Source of the DNA: Demequina soli
Lineage (GTDB): Bacteria; Actinomycetota; Actinomycetes; Actinomycetales; Demequinaceae
DNA length: 64,000 nt
Assembly (NCBI RefSeq): GCF_000971195.1
Contig: NZ_BBLZ01000002.1
Coordinates: 62,001 to 126,000, forward strand
Direction of reading: 5' to 3'
Part shown: positions 48,738-58,825 of the stretch, one piece after another
How the letters are laid out: each line of letters begins with the position of its first letter
Position numbering within the stretch: the first letter of the stretch is position 1
Program-made: the position numbers and the translations under genes
The notes under the pieces: model-generated
What the model was told of the DNA's origin: nothing
Databases searched by the model: none
Seen by the model: only the letters and a program-made list of their open reading frames with translations

Positions 48738-48762
48738 GGCCGCGCGGCGCGCGCCCCGCCTC

Positions 48763-49064
48763 CGACCGCGATCCACACAAGATCGGCACTTGGCATCGGT
48801 CTGGTCGGGGTTCGTGCCGGGAAGTGCATCGGGCGAACGTTCACATCGATGTGGGCGTGTGGAGCGGGGTCGGGCGCGAGCGCGCCCTGGCGTCCGGCCT
48901 GGCGTCGCGCCCCCGACCGTGATCCACACGCGGAATGCATTCCGCGACCCCGTCGTCCCGGTATGCGCCGGGAAGTGCATCGGGCGAACGTTCACATCGA
49001 GGTGGGCGTGTGGGGCAAGGTCGGGCACACGCGCGCCCAGGCGCCCGCCCGGAGGCGATGTCAG
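48763..49064 (+). repeat. 151-bp tandem repeat (two copies) upstream of nrdA
   Basis: Two head-to-tail units with period 151 (48763-48913 and 48914-49064). Matching segments include CGACCGYGATCCACAC at each unit start and the 41-base block beginning CCGGGAAGTGCATCGG at 48817 and 48968, nearly identical in both; the ends match less well. The first copy contains the palindrome CACATCGATGTG, broken by one base in the second. No plausible gene runs through. This takes up about half of the 653-bp gap between upp and nrdA. Confidence 0.85.
48929..48946. repeat. 18-bp perfect palindrome inside second tandem unit
   Basis: CGCGGAATG followed by its complement CATTCCGCG, present only in the second 151-bp unit. 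Possible protein-binding site or a later insertion into that unit. Confidence 0.75.
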
Positions 49065-49189: not shown

Positions 49190-49237
49190 CCACTAGATGT
49201 AGGGGCAGTTTTCAGTTTTGGCCCCCATATCTAGTTG
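49190..49237 (+). promoter_or_regulatory. paired NrdR boxes
   Basis: Box 1 at 49190-49205 (core CTAGATGTAG) and box 2 at 49222-49237 (core CCATATCTAG) fit the NrdR consensus core CwAtATaTwG with two mismatches each. Start-to-start spacing is 32 bp, the standard three-turn arrangement. NrdR with dATP/ATP represses ribonucleotide reductase genes. Confidence 0.85.
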
Positions 49238-49390: not shown

Positions 49391-52321
49391 GTGACGATCA
49401 CCGAGAACACCGCGGCCGCCGAGACCGGAGGCACCGCCGCGCTGCCCGTCGTGGCCAGCGGCATCCATGTCACCAAGCGCGACGGGACCCGCGAGCCGTA
49501 CAACGCCGACCGCATCAACAAGGCGATCGAGCGCGCGGCCGACGGCCTGCCGGACCAGATCTCGATGACCACGCAGATCGCGACCGAGCTCGCGATCACC
49601 CTGTTCGACGGCATCACCACCGAGCAGCTCGACGAGGCCGCCATCGGCGTGGCCGTCCAGAACGTCAAGGATGACCCGCAGTTCGACGTGGTCGCCTCGC
49701 GCCTCCTGCGCAAGGTCATCTACAAGCGCGTCCTCGGCTCGTACGACACCGAGCTCGAGCTCGCGCTGCTGCACCAGGCGCGCTTCCCGGGCTACATCCG
49801 CGACGCCGTCGAGGAGGGCCTGCTCGACACGCGCCTCACCGACCTGTTCGACCTCGACGCGCTCGCCGCGGCGATCGACCACACTCGCGACGACCTGATG
49901 AAGTACATCGGCACCGTGACCATGCGCAACCGCTACATGATCACCGACCGCCACGGGAAGGCCCTCGAGGTCCCCCAGTACTTCTGGATGCGCGTGTCGA
50001 TGGGCCTCGCGCTCAACGAGGCCAACCCCACGGAGATGGCGCTCGAGTTCTACGACAAGATCTCGAAGCTCGACTACCTCCCGGCCGGCTCGACCCTCGT
50101 CAACGCGGGCACCTCCTACCCCCAGCTCTCCAACTGCTTCGTCATGCAGATGGAGGACGACATCGAGCACATCGCCAAGTCGGTGCGCGACGTCATGTGG
50201 CTGACCAAGGGCACCGGCGGCATCGGCCTGTCCGTGACCAAGCTGCGCTCCGAGGGCTCGCCCATCCGCTCGAACAACACCACGTCGACCGGTCCGATCC
50301 CCTTCATGCACACCATCGACTCGACGCTGCGCGCCGTGTCCCGCGGTGGCAAGAAGTTCGGTGCGCTGTGCTTCTACATGGAGAACTGGCACATGGACTT
50401 CGCGCAGTTCCTCGACCTGCGCCAGAACTCCGGTGACCCGTACCGCCGCACCCGCACCGCCAACACCGCCGTGTGGATCTCGGACGAGTTCATGAAGCGC
50501 GTCGCGGCCGACGCCGACTGGTACCTGTTCGACCCGGCCGAGACCCCCGACCTCGTCGAGCTCACGGGCTCCGCGTTCTCGGCGCGCTACGCCGAGTACG
50601 TCGCCGCGGCCGAGGCCGGCCGCATGCGCACCTTCAAGAAGATGAAGGCCCGCGAGCAGTACAAGTCGATCCTCGTGATGCTCCAGACCACCTCGCACCC
50701 GTGGCTGACCTGGAAGGACACGATCAACAACCGTGCCCTCAACACCAACACGGGCACGATCCACCTGTCGAACCTCTGCACCGAGATCTGCCTCCCGCAG
50801 GACCGCGAGAACATCGCCGTCTGCAACCTGGCCTCGGTCAACCTGCCGGCGCACCTCGTCGACGGCAAGATCGACTGGGACCGCATGAAGGACTCGGTGC
50901 GCCTCGCGGTGCGCCAGCTCGACAACCTCGTCGACATCACCCTGTCGTCGGTGCCCGAGTCGGAGCACGCCAACCGCGAGAACCGCGCGATCGGCCTCGG
51001 CGTCATGGGCTTCACGGACATCACCGAGCGCCTCGGCATGGCCTACGAGTCGGAGGAGTCGTACGACCTGATCGACGAGATCGTCGAGTTCGTGTCCTTC
51101 CACGCGATCGACGCCTCGGCCGACCTTGCCCGTGAGCGCGGCTCGTACTCCAACTTCGACGGCTCCGGCTGGTCGCAGGGCAAGGTGCCGTTCGACACCA
51201 TCGCCGAGACCGAGGCGGACCGCGGCGTCAAGATCGACGTCGACCGCACCACCCGTCAGGACTGGGACACGCTCCGCGAGAAGGTCGCGGGCGGCATCCG
51301 CAACGCGACCCTCATGGCCGTGGCCCCGACCGCGTCCATCGGCCTCGTCGCCGGCGTCACGCCCGGCTTCGACCCGCAGTTCTCGCAGATCTTCTCCCGC
51401 GCCACCTCGTCGGGCAAGTTCCTCGAGGTCAACCGCAACCTGGTGAAGGACCTCCAGGAGCTGGGCCTGTGGGAGGACGTCCGTGACCGCCTCCTCGAGG
51501 TGCAGGGCGACCTGTCCCAGATCGACGAGGTCCCGCAGCACCTCAAGGACGTCTACAAGACCTCCTTCCAGCTCTCGCCCTACGCCTTCATCGAGGTGGC
51601 GGCGCGCGCCCAGAAGTGGATCGACCAGGCCATCAGCCGCAACATCTACCTCGAGGACCGCGACGTCGAGAACATGATGGCGCTGTACGCGAAGGCGTGG
51701 GAGAAGGGCGTCAAGACGACGTACTACCTCCACATGAAGCCGCGTCACACCGCCGAGCAGTCGACGGTGCGCGTCAACAAGACCGAGAAGATCAACTCGA
51801 CCGGCAACGCCGCGGGCCGTCCCGCCGCCGGCGGGTCGTCCGGCCCGGCCCGCAAGGGCTTCGGCGCCCGCAAGGGCTTCGGCGCCTCGAAGGCCCCCGT
51901 GGCCGATGCGGTCGTCGAGACGGTCGAGGAGGCCCCGGCCGAGGTGGTCGAGGCCAAGCCTGTCACCCGCGGCTTCGCGGCCGTCAAGAAGGCCGAGCCG
52001 GCCGCGGTGACGACACCGATCGAGACGGTCGAGGCCGCCCCGGCCACCGGCGCGATCGCCGCCCCGGCGGAGATCTTCGCCTCGGTCGCGGCCCAGGCCT
52101 TCGCCGCCGCGCCCGCCCAGCAGCCCGAGGTCCCCCCGACCTCGCTCCCGGAGACCACCGACGCCCCTGCTTCCGCGGGCTTCGACCCCGCGGCGGTTGC
52201 GCCGCTCGGCGCCTCGCTGCTCAATGTGGTGGAGGGCATCGACGGGGACACGGAGATGGTCGGCGGCGTCGCCTGCCCCGTGGACCCCATGGAGCGGCTC
52301 CAGTGCGAGTCGTGCCAGTAA
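49391..52321 (+). CDS. nrdA: ribonucleoside-diphosphate reductase large subunit
   Basis: 976 residues from GTG 49391 with GGAGGGGAG upstream. N-terminal ATP-cone (VTKRDGTREPYNADRINKAI, residues ~27-115) for allosteric activity control; ten-stranded barrel with catalytic cysteines in SNCFVMQ and NLCTEICLP, and VCNLASVNL. After ~residue 800 an unusual Gly/Lys then Ala/Pro/Glu linker (with KGFGARKGFGASK) of about 150 residues leads to the C-terminal redox pair in LQCESCQ. Class I by its partner NrdB 29 bp downstream. Controlled by NrdR and probably DnaA sites. Confidence 0.95.
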   Translation: MTITENTAAAETGGTAALPVVASGIHVTKRDGTREPYNADRINKAIERAADGLPDQISMTTQIATELAITLFDGITTEQLDEAAIGVAVQNVKDDPQFDVVASRLLRKVIYKRVLGSYDTELELALLHQARFPGYIRDAVEEGLLDTRLTDLFDLDALAAAIDHTRDDLMKYIGTVTMRNRYMITDRHGKALEVPQYFWMRVSMGLALNEANPTEMALEFYDKISKLDYLPAGSTLVNAGTSYPQLSNCFVMQMEDDIEHIAKSVRDVMWLTKGTGGIGLSVTKLRSEGSPIRSNNTTSTGPIPFMHTIDSTLRAVSRGGKKFGALCFYMENWHMDFAQFLDLRQNSGDPYRRTRTANTAVWISDEFMKRVAADADWYLFDPAETPDLVELTGSAFSARYAEYVAAAEAGRMRTFKKMKAREQYKSILVMLQTTSHPWLTWKDTINNRALNTNTGTIHLSNLCTEICLPQDRENIAVCNLASVNLPAHLVDGKIDWDRMKDSVRLAVRQLDNLVDITLSSVPESEHANRENRAIGLGVMGFTDITERLGMAYESEESYDLIDEIVEFVSFHAIDASADLARERGSYSNFDGSGWSQGKVPFDTIAETEADRGVKIDVDRTTRQDWDTLREKVAGGIRNATLMAVAPTASIGLVAGVTPGFDPQFSQIFSRATSSGKFLEVNRNLVKDLQELGLWEDVRDRLLEVQGDLSQIDEVPQHLKDVYKTSFQLSPYAFIEVAARAQKWIDQAISRNIYLEDRDVENMMALYAKAWEKGVKTTYYLHMKPRHTAEQSTVRVNKTEKINSTGNAAGRPAAGGSSGPARKGFGARKGFGASKAPVADAVVETVEEAPAEVVEAKPVTRGFAAVKKAEPAAVTTPIETVEAAPATGAIAAPAEIFASVAAQAFAAAPAQQPEVPPTSLPETTDAPASAGFDPAAVAPLGASLLNVVEGIDGDTEMVGGVACPVDPMERLQCESCQ

Positions 52322-52350
52322 GCGCGTAAGGAAGAGGAGACTTCACAACG

Positions 52351-53340
52351 ATGGGCATTCTCGGAAGCGGCGTGCAGGACGGACTCCTGCTCAAGCCGAT
52401 CACGTACCCCTGGGCCTACGACCTGTACAACCAGGCCGTCGCCAACACCTGGTTCCCCAACGAGATCCAGCTCGGTGAGGACCTCGCGGACTTCAAGAAG
52501 ATGACCGACGAGGAGAAGCACGCCATCACGCACCTGATGTCGTACTTCAACCCCAACGAGCTGCTCGTCAACAAGGCGCTCGCGTTCGGCGTCTACCCCT
52601 ACATCAACGCCCCCGAGGGTCACCTCTACCTGGCGAAGCAGATGTGGGAGGAGGCCAACCACTGCATGTCCTTCGAGTACGTCCTCGAGACGTTCCCGAT
52701 CGACCGCGAGGCCGCCTACGAGTCGCACGTCACCGTGCCGTCGATGGCCGCCAAGGAGGCCTTCGAGGTCAAGTTCATCAAGCGGATGACGGAGGAGACC
52801 CTCGACATCACGACGACTGAGGGCAAGAAGGACTTCATCCGCAACCTCGTCGCGTACAACATCATCCTCGAGGGCATCTGGTTCTACTCGGGCTTCATGG
52901 TCGCGCTGTCGTTCCGCCAGCGGAACCTGCTGCGCAACTTCGGCTCGCTCATGGACTGGATCATCCGCGATGAGTCGCTGCACCTGCAGTTCGGCATCAA
53001 CCTCATCCTCACGGTGCTCGAGGAGAACGAGGACCTGCAGGACCCGGAGTTCGCCGAGGAGATCCGTCAGATGATCCTCGACGCCGTCGAGATGGAGGAG
53101 GCGTACAACCGCGACCTCCTGCCCAAGGGCATCCTCGGCCTCAACGCCGACTACGTGAACACGTACGTCAAGTACCTCGCGGACCGTCGTCTCGAGGAGC
53201 TCGGCTTCGACGCGCACTACAACGTGTCGAACCCCGCGAAGTGGATGGCGACGGCCAACGACACGCTCCAGCTGGTGAACTTCTTCGAGGCCACCAACAC
53301 GTCGTACGAGGTCAACGCACAGGCCACCAAGCTCCAGTAG
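52351..53340 (+). CDS. nrdB: ribonucleoside-diphosphate reductase small subunit, class Ic-like (Phe at radical site)
   Basis: 329 residues, ATG 52351. Diiron-type helical bundle with metal ligands E70 (in NPNELLVN), E101 and H104 (in EEANHCMSFEY), E174 (IILEGIWFY), E208 and H211 (RDESLH). The residue four after His104, where class Ia/Ib proteins have the radical Tyr, is Phe108 (codon 52672-52674), and ligand one is Glu instead of Asp. All spacings (31, 3, 4, 34, 3) equal those of Chlamydia trachomatis R2 (E89/E120/H123/F127/E193/E227/H230), which uses a Mn/Fe cofactor. Tyr110 lies two residues on. Confidence 0.95.
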   Translation: MGILGSGVQDGLLLKPITYPWAYDLYNQAVANTWFPNEIQLGEDLADFKKMTDEEKHAITHLMSYFNPNELLVNKALAFGVYPYINAPEGHLYLAKQMWEEANHCMSFEYVLETFPIDREAAYESHVTVPSMAAKEAFEVKFIKRMTEETLDITTTEGKKDFIRNLVAYNIILEGIWFYSGFMVALSFRQRNLLRNFGSLMDWIIRDESLHLQFGINLILTVLEENEDLQDPEFAEEIRQMILDAVEMEEAYNRDLLPKGILGLNADYVNTYVKYLADRRLEELGFDAHYNVSNPAKWMATANDTLQLVNFFEATNTSYEVNAQATKLQ

Positions 53341-53380: not shown

Positions 53381-53424
53381 CGAGACGCCCGGCGCAGAGC
53401 AATCGCTCTGCGCCGGGCGTCTCG
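53381..53424 (+). terminator. nrdAB terminator
   Basis: A perfect 20-bp stem (53381-53400 with 53405-53424; arm begins CGAGACGCCCGGC) around an AATC loop, 40 bp after the nrdB stop. No T-run follows. Confidence 0.9.
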
Positions 53425-55459: not shown

Positions 55460-58400
55460 TCAGCCGCGCGGGGTGACGGTCGCGACGAGCGAGCTCAGCA
55501 GGTAACGGTCGCTCAGGCCCGAGTACACCTCGATGCGGTGGAGGCCCGCGCCGACCGTCTTGGTCTTGAACGGCTTCGCATCCGTGCCGAGCGAGTTCGC
55601 GAACGGCGAGCCGAACGCCGTCGAGTCTGCGGCGTTGCCGGAGTTCCCCCCGACCGCGCGGGACCCCGACCACCCCCACGGGTTGAGGGTGTCGCCGTCG
55701 ATCGCGACGCGGTTGTCGGGCTTGCCCCGGTCGCCCTCGAACGCGACCATCGCGAGATCCACGTCGGCCGAGCCCGCGGTCACGAACGGCACGCCCACGG
55801 TGGTGGCCCACATCCACTGGCTGCCGCCGAGCACCGCGACCGTCGCCTGCGGCAGCTCGGGCATCGAGTACACCACGGTGATCGCGAAGCCCGCGTAGTA
55901 GTTCGGGAGCAGGGCCGCGTAGTCGCGGGGGAGCGCGACGTCGGCGAGCGCGTAGCCGCCGTTGCCCGCGGCCCTCACCTGCGCGGTGATGTCCGCCGTC
56001 GCCTGGTAGTACAGGTCGCCGTCGCCCCAGCTGGAGGCGACACGCGTGGCCGTGATGTCCTCGTACGTGCCGCCGGGGACGCGCAGGCGTGCCCCCGTGA
56101 GGTCGTCGCGCGTCCACGTGTCGAACACGCCCTTGTCGGCCGACCACGTCAGGGTCGCCGAGACGACCGTCGCGCCCGCCGGCAGCAGGTCCGTCGACAG
56201 CACGGTCTCCGACGAGCTCGACGCGCCGCCCGCGAGGTTGAGCGGGCGCATCGTCTGCGTCTCGTTGTCGTAACGCGGGTTCGCGTCCGACCCGCGGAAG
56301 TCCATCACCTGCTGGCAGTCGCGCACCGCCAGGTCGCAGCCGAGCAGCGGCGCGCCCACGACGGTGGCGGCGACGTGCCCGGTCCACTGCGCGACGTGGT
56401 CGAGCGCGGGCGCGGAGTCGGACAGGCCCGTGCGGACCCGGTAGGACACCGAGTCGTCGCCGGACGATGCGCTGAACTCGGTCCACGCGTCGTCACCGAG
56501 GTCCTGCACGGAGGTGAGCGCCGCGAGGTCGAGCGTGACCGCGACGGACTCGCCGGAGCCCAGCGAGTCGAGGTGGCAGCCGGCCTCGGAGCGGTCCGCC
56601 GACAGCTCGCAGGTCCACGCGCCCACCTGGATCGTCGACGTGGCGGCGAAGGCGAGGTACGCGCCGACCTCGTCGGCACGGCTCGCGAAGGTGGCGCCCG
56701 CGCCGCCGCTCGGGGCGGCGAACGCCAGCCCCGCAGGGAGGACGATGCTCGCGGCCAGGTCGTCGGCCGCCGCGTCGCCGTCGTTGGCGAGGGTCATGGT
56801 CACCGAGGGGGACGTGCGCGCGATCGTCAGGTAGTCGAGGGGCGCCGCGCCGATCGACAGCGCGATCGTGCCCGTGCTGCCGCCGTTGTCGGTCCCGCCG
56901 TTGTCGGTCCCGCCGTTGTCGGTTCCGCCGTTGTCGGTCCCGCCGTTGTCGGTCCCACCGTTGTCGGTCCCACCGTTGTCGGTCCCGCCGTTGTCGGTTC
57001 CGCCGTTGTCGGTTCCGCCGTTGTCGGTTCCGCCGTTGTCGGTTCCGCCGTTGTCGGTTCCGCCGTTGTCGGTTCCGCCGTTGTCGGTCCCACCGGTGTC
57101 GGTCCCACCGGTGTCGGTCCCACCGGTGTCGGTCCCACCGGTGCCTCCGCCTGTGGAGCCGCCGTCGGTGCCTCCGCCTGTGGAGCCACCGTCGGTGCCT
57201 CCGCCCGTGGAGCCACCGTCGGTGCCTCCGCCCGTGGAGCCACCGCCGGTGCCGCCACCCGTGGAGCCACCGCCGGTGCCGCCACCCGTGGAACCGCCAC
57301 CAGTCGACCCGCCGGTCGACCCCGAGCCAGCCGTGGATCCATCGCCGCCGGTCGATCCGGTGCCGCCGGTCGATCCGGTGCCGGCGAGGGCACCCTGGAC
57401 GGCCGCCGGCGCGGTGCCGTTCACCGCCGCGCCGGAGGACCCGGTCGACGCGCCGTCGCCCGCCGACGTGTCGGCGGAAGGCGCGACCGAGGGCGCCACG
57501 GAAGGAGCGACGGAGGCGCCCGTCGACGGGGAGGGGCTCGCCGCATCGTCCCCGGACCCGGGCGTGGCGTCCTGGCCCGCCGGGGCCTCGATGCCGGTCG
57601 CGGACTCCGCGCCCGAGCCGCCGTGCGAGCCCTGGCCGATGATGCCGACCACGCTCGCGCCGGTCATGACGAGCGACACGACGCCGAGCGTCGCCGCGAC
57701 GGGCAGCGCGATCGCCGCGAGCCCGTTGGCCACCGCCGCGATGCCGCCCGCGATCGTCCCGCCGAGGCCGCCTCCGGCCGCGCCGCCGGCGCCCGCGGCA
57801 CCCCCGGCCGCTCCGGACGCCGCGACGGCACCCTCGCCGAGCGCGCCGCCGACCGGCAGCCCGCCCTCGAGCGCCTTGACGCCCAGGAGGCCGAGGAACA
57901 GGGGGGCGATGACGGCCCGCAGGCCGCGGTTGACGTCCTCGAGCTCGGCGACGAGCGCCGCGCACTTCTCGCACGAGCGGACGTGCTCGTCGACGCGCGT
58001 GTGCTCGCGCTTGCTCAACCCGCCGCGCACGTACGAGCCGAGCTGGGCGTTCGCCTCGAGGCAGTTGACGGTGTCGGCGGCGCTCAGGTGCTGCTGGAGG
58101 TACGCCTGGCGGAGGGCCTCGCGCGCGCGGTAGGCGAGCGCCGCGACGCCGTTGGCCGACAGGCCCAGCAGGGGCGCGATGTCCTTGGGGCTCTTCTTCT
58201 CGACCTCGGTGTACCAGAGCACGGCACGCCAGCGCTCGGGCAGCGAGCGGAAGGCGTCGGCGACCATCGACTGCTCGAACGTGTCGAGCGCGGGCTCGTC
58301 GGAGCCGCCCTGGTACCCGAGCGCCGACTCGTACGGCGACATGTCGTCGCGGGGCCGCGCGCGGTTCGCCTTCTCGATCACGTCGAGCCCGGTGCGGCGC

Positions 58401-58663
58401 ACGATGGTGAACAGGTAGGCGCGGAACGCGAGGTCGGGGCCGTCGCCCTGCTGCAGCGCGCGCAGGATGCGCGAGAAGGACTCGGAGACCACGTCCTCCG
58501 CGTCGGCGGCGCTGTTGGTGTACTGCTGCGCGACCTTGCGGGCGGCGTCCGAGTGGCGCTCGTAGAGCACGCCGAAGGCGGCCGGGTCGCCGGCGCGCAC
58601 ACCGGCGATCAGCTCAGGGTCGCTGGACGTCTCCGTCCAGAGCGACAACGCCTCCTGCGACAT
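55460..58663 (-). CDS. ECF sigma factor fused to anti-sigma zinc motif, membrane span, repeat stalk and surface domain
   Basis: 1067 residues from ATG 58663; a TTG nine codons earlier is possible. Residues ~15-190 are an ECF sigma factor (ARKVAQQYTNSAADAEDVVS in region 2; LPERWRAVLWYTEVEKKSPK in region 4). H227-x3-C231-x2-C234 (EHVRSCEKC) is the zinc motif of anti-sigma factors. One long hydrophobic span (~303-345) follows, then a Ser/Thr/Gly linker with GGS/TGGG repeats, 3 TDTGG and 14 TDNGG pentapeptides, and about 450 residues of beta-rich exported domain with cysteine pairs. Topology: sigma inside, stalk and domain outside. ECFs with membrane-spanning C-terminal extensions are known, but I do not know this architecture. 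Confidence 0.85.
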   Translation of the reverse strand: MSQEALSLWTETSSDPELIAGVRAGDPAAFGVLYERHSDAARKVAQQYTNSAADAEDVVSESFSRILRALQQGDGPDLAFRAYLFTIVRRTGLDVIEKANRARPRDDMSPYESALGYQGGSDEPALDTFEQSMVADAFRSLPERWRAVLWYTEVEKKSPKDIAPLLGLSANGVAALAYRAREALRQAYLQQHLSAADTVNCLEANAQLGSYVRGGLSKREHTRVDEHVRSCEKCAALVAELEDVNRGLRAVIAPLFLGLLGVKALEGGLPVGGALGEGAVAASGAAGGAAGAGGAAGGGLGGTIAGGIAAVANGLAAIALPVAATLGVVSLVMTGASVVGIIGQGSHGGSGAESATGIEAPAGQDATPGSGDDAASPSPSTGASVAPSVAPSVAPSADTSAGDGASTGSSGAAVNGTAPAAVQGALAGTGSTGGTGSTGGDGSTAGSGSTGGSTGGGSTGGGTGGGSTGGGTGGGSTGGGTDGGSTGGGTDGGSTGGGTDGGSTGGGTGGTDTGGTDTGGTDTGGTDNGGTDNGGTDNGGTDNGGTDNGGTDNGGTDNGGTDNGGTDNGGTDNGGTDNGGTDNGGTDNGGTDNGGSTGTIALSIGAAPLDYLTIARTSPSVTMTLANDGDAAADDLAASIVLPAGLAFAAPSGGAGATFASRADEVGAYLAFAATSTIQVGAWTCELSADRSEAGCHLDSLGSGESVAVTLDLAALTSVQDLGDDAWTEFSASSGDDSVSYRVRTGLSDSAPALDHVAQWTGHVAATVVGAPLLGCDLAVRDCQQVMDFRGSDANPRYDNETQTMRPLNLAGGASSSSETVLSTDLLPAGATVVSATLTWSADKGVFDTWTRDDLTGARLRVPGGTYEDITATRVASSWGDGDLYYQATADITAQVRAAGNGGYALADVALPRDYAALLPNYYAGFAITVVYSMPELPQATVAVLGGSQWMWATTVGVPFVTAGSADVDLAMVAFEGDRGKPDNRVAIDGDTLNPWGWSGSRAVGGNSGNAADSTAFGSPFANSLGTDAKPFKTKTVGAGLHRIEVYSGLSDRYLLSSLVATVTPRG
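56883..57145 (-). repeat. 15-bp tandem coding repeats (TDNGG/TDTGG stalk)
   Basis: Fourteen units of CGTTGTCGGTCCCGC type (TDNGG) and three with GTGTC (TDTGG), varying by C/T at one or two third positions, within the sigma-fusion gene. Unit number is likely to vary between strains through slippage. Reads on the opposite strand as a Val-Pro-Pro-Leu-Ser repeat, which is a shadow. Confidence 0.95.
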
Positions 58664-58825
58664 TCCGTGGTCACTCCCGTAGCCGGACAAGTAGGGGCAT
58701 TGTTCCTGGTGGGGAAGGAACGGGGCAAGGCGGATGAGGCCAACGTCACACCCTTCGGCGGGGTTCGTCCGAAAAATCTTCGCGGAACCGCGTCATAACG
58801 CCGTGCGCCCTCCCTCTCATGGGGC

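Follow-up and report, generated by a model that had tools for sequence, protein, structure and literature searches.

A predicted class Ic-type ribonucleotide reductase with tryptophan at the activation-relay column in Demequina soli

Results

The nrdAB locus

The window, i.e. the entire 64,000-nucleotide stretch of Demequina soli DNA that was analysed, belongs to a 3.0 Mb genome in 16 contigs (99.28% complete) and contains nrdA followed by nrdB on the same strand (Table 1). The nrdB frame is open, starts with ATG and encodes 329 amino acids. The two genes form an operon with a gap of 29 bases, and each is preceded by a Shine-Dalgarno-like stretch. As the listed nrdA frame opens at a TTG (49376) that falls within this stretch, the GTG given in Table 1 is probably the start. 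The NrdA translation carries the active-site cysteines, a Tyr-Tyr pair and a C-terminal CESC, and the roles of the cysteines and of the Tyr-Tyr pair are presumed to be those of the E. coli enzyme. Profile search returned a single ATP-cone match (PF03477). A long Ala/Pro-rich linker connects the barrel to the C-terminal CESC, and the match of several relatives to the window NrdA ends ahead of it (near residue 836 in locus L045).

Table 1. Coordinates of features at and around nrdAB, in window positions
Feature	Position	Strand	Basis or remark
Two imperfect direct repeats upstream of nrdA	48751..49050		
NrdR-box-like palindrome CCACTAGATGTAGGGG	49190..49205		pattern match
Second NrdR-box-like site	49222..49237		32 bp from the first
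nrdA, catalytic subunit	49391..52321	+	NF005101, 1480 bits (cut-off 988); one N-terminal ATP cone
Ala/Pro-rich linker of NrdA	51756..52300		
Shine-Dalgarno-like stretch GGAAGAGGAG ahead of nrdB	52330..52339		
nrdB, class Ic-type radical-generating subunit (R2)	52351..53340	+	NCBIfam NF007186, 397 bits (cut-off 237); Pfam PF00268
Glu70 codon, first metal ligand (C. trachomatis E89; Asp in class Ia/Ib)	52558..52560	+	alignment
Phe108 codon TTC, radical-tyrosine column (C. trachomatis F127)	52672..52674	+	sequence and alignment
Tyr110 codon (C. trachomatis Y129), off the radical column	52678..52680	+	alignment
Trp203 codon, column of the chlamydial relay Tyr222	52957..52959	+	alignment
Tyr319 codon (C. 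trachomatis Y338), C-terminal radical-transfer tyrosine	53305..53307	+	alignment
Hairpin 3' of nrdB, 20-bp perfect stem, terminator-like, without T run	53381..53424	+	fold energy
1076-aa frame, sigma factor-like start	55460..58690	-	translation

Two palindromes upstream of nrdA resemble the NrdR-box motif. Its core pattern, with at most one mismatch, occurs three times in the window versus 0.61 times expected, a count reached in 2 of 100 shuffles; two of these matches are the boxes upstream of nrdA and the third lies within nrdA. A looser pattern was applied to up to 700 bases upstream in all loci with the nrdA start in reach. At least one site was found in 85 of 93 loci, whereas shuffling of each stretch left on average 15 such loci and at most 22, and among the 55 loci above 60% G+C the count was 49 versus 3.2 in shuffles. 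The genome contains an nrdR gene, and expression of nrdAB is probably repressed by NrdR via the paired boxes. A search for RNA elements upstream, including the B12 riboswitch, gave none above threshold. Downstream of nrdB, the segment 53370-53445 folds with -54 kcal/mol (z -10.4).

Two further features of the neighbourhood should be noted. The direct repeats upstream of nrdA (96 and 28 nt, spacing 151) are 84-86% alike. On the opposite strand, the translation of a 1076-aa frame has an ECF sigma factor-like start, followed by a Cys-rich stretch of anti-sigma-like character, a membrane segment, a long GGTDNGG repeat and a domain of extracellular appearance; as a whole it resembles a membrane-tethered sigma factor.

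Active-site residues of NrdB

By sequence, the closest solved structures are chlamydial R2 chains and the Saccharopolyspora R2 6y2n, the best match to NrdB having E = 3.1e-68. Residues were aligned over the matched stretch of PDB 1syy, which we take, like 4d8f, to be the R2 of Chlamydia trachomatis (Ct); NrdB is 36.1% identical to it over 310 columns. Every metal ligand has its counterpart (E70=E89, E101=E120, H104=H123, E174=E193, E208=E227 and H211=H230), and the offset from NrdB to Ct R2 is constant, 19 at every aligned residue. The other columns compared are W34=W51, F108=F127, Y110=Y129, F178=F197, W203=Y222, D207=D226 and Y319=Y338. The initial annotation had claimed the chlamydial spacing for the six ligands and F108, and this is exact; its reading of residue 108 as a TTC codon is likewise borne out, and the class Ic signature that it proposed, in which Phe occupies the radical column and the first ligand is Glu, is recovered in the alignment. 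Conversely, its description of the enzyme as radical-tyrosine-independent applies to the radical column, occupied by F108, and goes too far for radical transfer. Since Tyr319 and the Tyr-Tyr pair of the transfer path in NrdA are both kept, "without stable tyrosyl radical" is the better wording. All 164 distinct sequences of at least 65% identity retain the residue pattern, which together with the E-value places the match far beyond chance.

Class assignment and the ribonucleotide reductases of the genus

In class Ie ribonucleotide reductases (RNRs) the metal ligands are replaced; in NrdB they are all present. Class Ic is marked by a Phe/Glu pair, classes Ia and Ib by Tyr/Asp and class Id by Tyr/Glu, as laid out in PMC8463856. 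In the alignment, NrdB shows the class Ic features throughout, i.e. F108, E70, the five further ligands E101, H104, E174, E208 and H211, and Y319 with W34. With E70 and F108 it lacks the pair of class Ia/Ib, Asp as first ligand plus the radical Tyr, for which Asp-Tyr controls were aligned. The combination expected for class Id, Glu plus a Tyr in the radical column with an alpha subunit devoid of the ATP cone, is not seen either, given F108 and the ATP cone of NrdA. R2lox proteins are described as having Ala in place of the bulky Phe197 residue of Ct (PMC4118035). NrdB has F178 at this column as well as Y319, the conserved C-terminal Tyr that R2lox lacks, and R2lox models scored 35-82 bits on NrdB, all below their cut-offs of 194-346.

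A profile search of the 16 contigs gave one match each to PF02867, PF00268 and PF13597, corresponding to NrdA, NrdB and an anaerobic class III NrdD, so that no aerobic RNR other than NrdAB was found in the genome. As the assembly is fragmented and slightly incomplete, a second R2 hidden in a gap is possible though unlikely. Judged from sequence, NrdAB is in all likelihood a class Ic enzyme and the sole oxygen-dependent RNR found in this genome. Mn/Fe content of NrdB would follow from the class Ic assignment.

Across 25 Demequina genomes, including that of the window, 14 have a Glu-Phe R2 only, seven a Glu-Phe R2 plus a class Ib NrdF, and four NrdF only; residues were checked in all 32 R2 genes, and completeness is uneven (85% in G005). 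One of the 14 Glu-Phe-only genomes (G017) has a second large subunit too. In a second draw of Demequina genomes the protein was present in 19 and absent from four. Within the genus, class Ic and class Ib thus replace each other or coexist. The NrdF proteins serve the same job but are 21-24% identical to NrdB, carry the Asp-Tyr pair and have Leu at column 203. Species with Ic, Ib or both provide a natural comparison of Mn/Fe and class Ib chemistry in one background.

Covariation of first ligand and radical residue

Relatives for the pair count are a subset of all matches, part of which were fetched: 80 of 533 loci were kept for named genomes, 43 of 396 for the host phylum (match at E 1e-20), 51 of 297 for the order, 34 of 39 for the nearest relatives by Pfam, 65 of 244 for the class of a named Saccharibacteria genome and 52 of 379 for its phylum, together with 32 loci on viral contigs. 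A C-terminally cut copy of the window's own nrdB (L001) was omitted, and five viral loci with a match shorter than about 280 residues fall outside the count. One protein that is R2-like by Pfam (G030:C2, L154) failed BLAST against the window NrdB and is in no tree. The alignment comprises 300 R2 rows; over columns 34-319 they reduce to 243 distinct sequences, Ct R2 and 6y2n among them. At columns 70 and 108 these read Glu-Phe in 181 cases, Glu-Leu in three and Asp-Tyr in 59, with no mixtures. On the 80-row tree the pair changed at least three times, both columns switching together. Unmixed pairs and joint changes indicate that the first-ligand and radical positions change in step, which is the expectation for class Ic.

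In three R2s of the window's phylum (L158-L160), Leu occupies the radical column and the first ligand is Glu. A distinct Asp-Tyr R2 of 31-34% identity occurs in other genomes of the Saccharibacteria class (L243-L255). This Asp-Tyr group is nested in a branch (96/97) that also contains chlamydial-type Glu-Phe and Glu-Leu sequences, a placement for which the program warned of long branches; a return to a tyrosyl-radical enzyme is possible in these genomes.

Tryptophan at the relay column

In Ct R2, the Mn(IV)/Fe(IV) intermediate is reduced by an electron passing over Tyr222 together with Trp51, the former being described as conserved among R2c proteins (PMC4118035). Tyr222 is a common, non-defining feature of class Ic, and its column holds Trp203 in NrdB and Trp in 164 of 164 distinct R2s of at least 65% identity, so that the chlamydial activation path is in this respect not reproduced as such. 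No sequence in the set lies between 45% and 65% identity to the window NrdB. The 16 other Glu-Phe R2s with Tyr at this column include Ct R2 and 6y2n, and one more has Phe (L313). Trp also occurs here in 25 distinct Asp-Tyr R2s of other actinobacteria and is hence not unique to class Ic.

Close relatives in Saccharibacteria and on viral contigs

Saccharibacteria are epibionts of actinobacteria. R2s 69-87% identical to that of the window are encoded in 51 of 244 genomes from the class of a named Saccharibacteria genome, and R2s of at least 64% identity in 19 of 379 genomes of its phylum (the Saccharibacteria loci with a close R2 being L163-L192, L222-L242, L089, L094, L105, L111 and L112). The close R2 is the sole one in four of the five named Saccharibacteria genomes searched. 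In the 43 Saccharibacteria loci that reach nrdA, this gene adjoins nrdB, with about 60-64% identity (68% in one case), and NrdR-like sites lie upstream of nrdA in those looked at. Contamination of the genome bins was considered and rejected for many of them: the gene resides on contigs of 1,081,308, 1,038,683 and 1,013,781 bases, and apart from L094 (58%) and L280 (59%), local G+C in the 43 loci ranges from 41 to 53%. L280, from genome G467 and with the NrdA of 68% identity, may be misbinned.

Among uncultured viruses, 32 contigs (IMG/VR, L314-L345) encode an NrdB of 66-81% identity with the Glu-Phe-Trp pattern. The twelve marker residues are complete in 27 of the 32; four cut sequences agree as far as they extend and one covers the last site only. 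Seven of ten flanking proteins match PHROG families (integrase, endolysin twice, exonuclease, thymidylate synthase, polynucleotide kinase and one family without function, E 6e-4), and three match none. Frames resembling nrdA are found in L335, L340 and L341, and a short match to the NrdA C-terminus in L325 and L328. The named phage collection was rejected as a carrier, with no match of at least 60% identity among 3159 records with an R2-like match; the plasmid records likewise gave none at this level among 1324.

Three trees disagree on the direction of transfer. In the 80-row NrdB tree, the actinobacteria (22 rows, 81/98) fall inside Saccharibacteria, and a topology holding Saccharibacteria together was not rejected (p-AU 0.476). 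The NrdA tree, built by a quick method, separates the two groups into sister clades (99 and 99). This tree and the preceding one carry very long outgroup branches, and for both the program issued a warning about meeting long branches. With viral rows added to NrdB, ordinary Saccharibacteria nest inside Actinobacteria (100/98); L338 groups with divergent Saccharibacteria-phylum sequences and the other 19 viral rows lie near the base of the clade. The sequences point to shared descent, i.e. an old sharing, between Actinobacteria and Saccharibacteria. From its occurrence in Actinobacteria, Saccharibacteria and viral contigs, the clade has moved between lineages; in its spread, an essential enzyme has crossed between groups that are only distantly related.

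Discussion

Cofactor and activation

We infer the metals, intermediates and electron path of NrdB by analogy with the chlamydial enzyme. Site 1 of the apo-protein would be filled by Mn(II) and site 2 by Fe(II), and reaction with O2 (or peroxide) would yield a Mn(IV)/Fe(IV) intermediate. One electron delivered via aromatic residues would convert this into Mn(IV)/Fe(III); in this clade, the activation relay may run over Trp203 rather than a tyrosine. The Mn(IV)/Fe(III) centre, and no tyrosyl radical, would then oxidise the active-site cysteine of NrdA through Trp34, Tyr319 and the Tyr-Tyr pair of NrdA.

A metal-centred initiator without tyrosyl radical could also contain two Mn, as in class Id, or two Fe. 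Phe108 fits these centres too, as the choice of metal is unreadable from the ligands, and Ct R2 was first isolated with di-iron according to PMC4118035. Still, the class Id enzymes described in PMC8463856 combine a Tyr/Glu pair with an alpha subunit devoid of the ATP cone, whereas NrdB has Phe/Glu and NrdA an ATP cone, and R2c is reported to be highly active only with the mixed-metal cofactor (PMC4118035). A homometallic centre is considered unlikely for NrdB.

The initial annotation had offered Tyr110, two residues past column 108, as the site of a stable radical. The residue is Tyr throughout the 164 distinct close relatives, but the alignment puts it at Ct Tyr129 and not at the radical column; 6y2n has Tyr there too, and in an Asp-Tyr group of 15 sequences this Tyr occurs alongside the radical-column Tyr. 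Helix geometry, moreover, would turn a residue two positions on away from E101, H104 and F108, and a Tyr110 radical appears very improbable. Loss of the radical tyrosine is also known from eukaryotic accessory R2s, and NrdB might analogously have degenerated, or serve as an accessory R2, and have lost the ability to build a cofactor. This is hardly credible for a protein with intact metal ligands, which is the sole R2 found in its genome, shares an operon with nrdA and is 88-98% identical among named Demequina loci.

Returning to the Mn/Fe enzyme, we tentatively suggest that the clade constitutes a second class Ic branch, in which Mn(IV)/Fe(IV) is reduced to Mn(IV)/Fe(III) via a Trp203-Trp34 relay instead of Tyr222-Trp51, and which, as a mobile RNR free of a tyrosine radical, has been passed among Actinobacteria, Saccharibacteria and phages; this combined proposal is plausible but less likely to be true than not. 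The Trp203 substitution offers a direct handle on how the Mn/Fe cofactor is activated.

Comparison with known systems

Tropheryma whipplei is an actinobacterium, and Demequina is a free-living genus with many cultured species. No paper on RNR in Demequina or Microbacteriaceae was found in the open-licence literature. Class Ic itself is already known, including in actinobacteria, and the surprise is moderate and smaller than the initial annotation held, because class Ic in an actinobacterium is in print (T. whipplei in the class Ic listing of the PMC4009431 table; 6y2n). Less expected are Trp203, the exchange of class Ic and Ib within Demequina, and a clade common to Actinobacteria, Saccharibacteria and uncultured phages. 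PMC4118035 describes class Ic R2s as occurring mainly in extremophiles and pathogens; the ecological range is wider than stated there, since in the genome of a free-living Demequina the sole aerobic RNR found is of class Ic type. Within alpha Group 3, many beta subunits reportedly have a redox-inert residue at the radical site, and class Ic-like betas accompany many NrdAz and NrdAq sequences (PMC9669993). As published, the Tropheryma enzyme is of class Ic and these enzymes are class Ic-like, which likens both to NrdAB.

The Saccharopolyspora erythraea R2 (6y2n; PMC7467353) is likewise actinobacterial, has the Glu/Phe pair and is 36% identical to the window NrdB. It differs in being 60.6% identical to Ct R2, in falling on the chlamydial side of the tree and in having Tyr at the 222 column. 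Ct R2c itself shares with NrdB all metal ligands, the radical-column Phe, the first-ligand Glu and the counterparts of Y129, W51, F197 and Y338, at 36% identity. Ct NrdA is described with three ATP cones (PMC9669993), versus one found in Demequina NrdA. At the column of Ct Tyr222 Demequina has Trp203, the one marked residue at which its NrdB departs from known class Ic.
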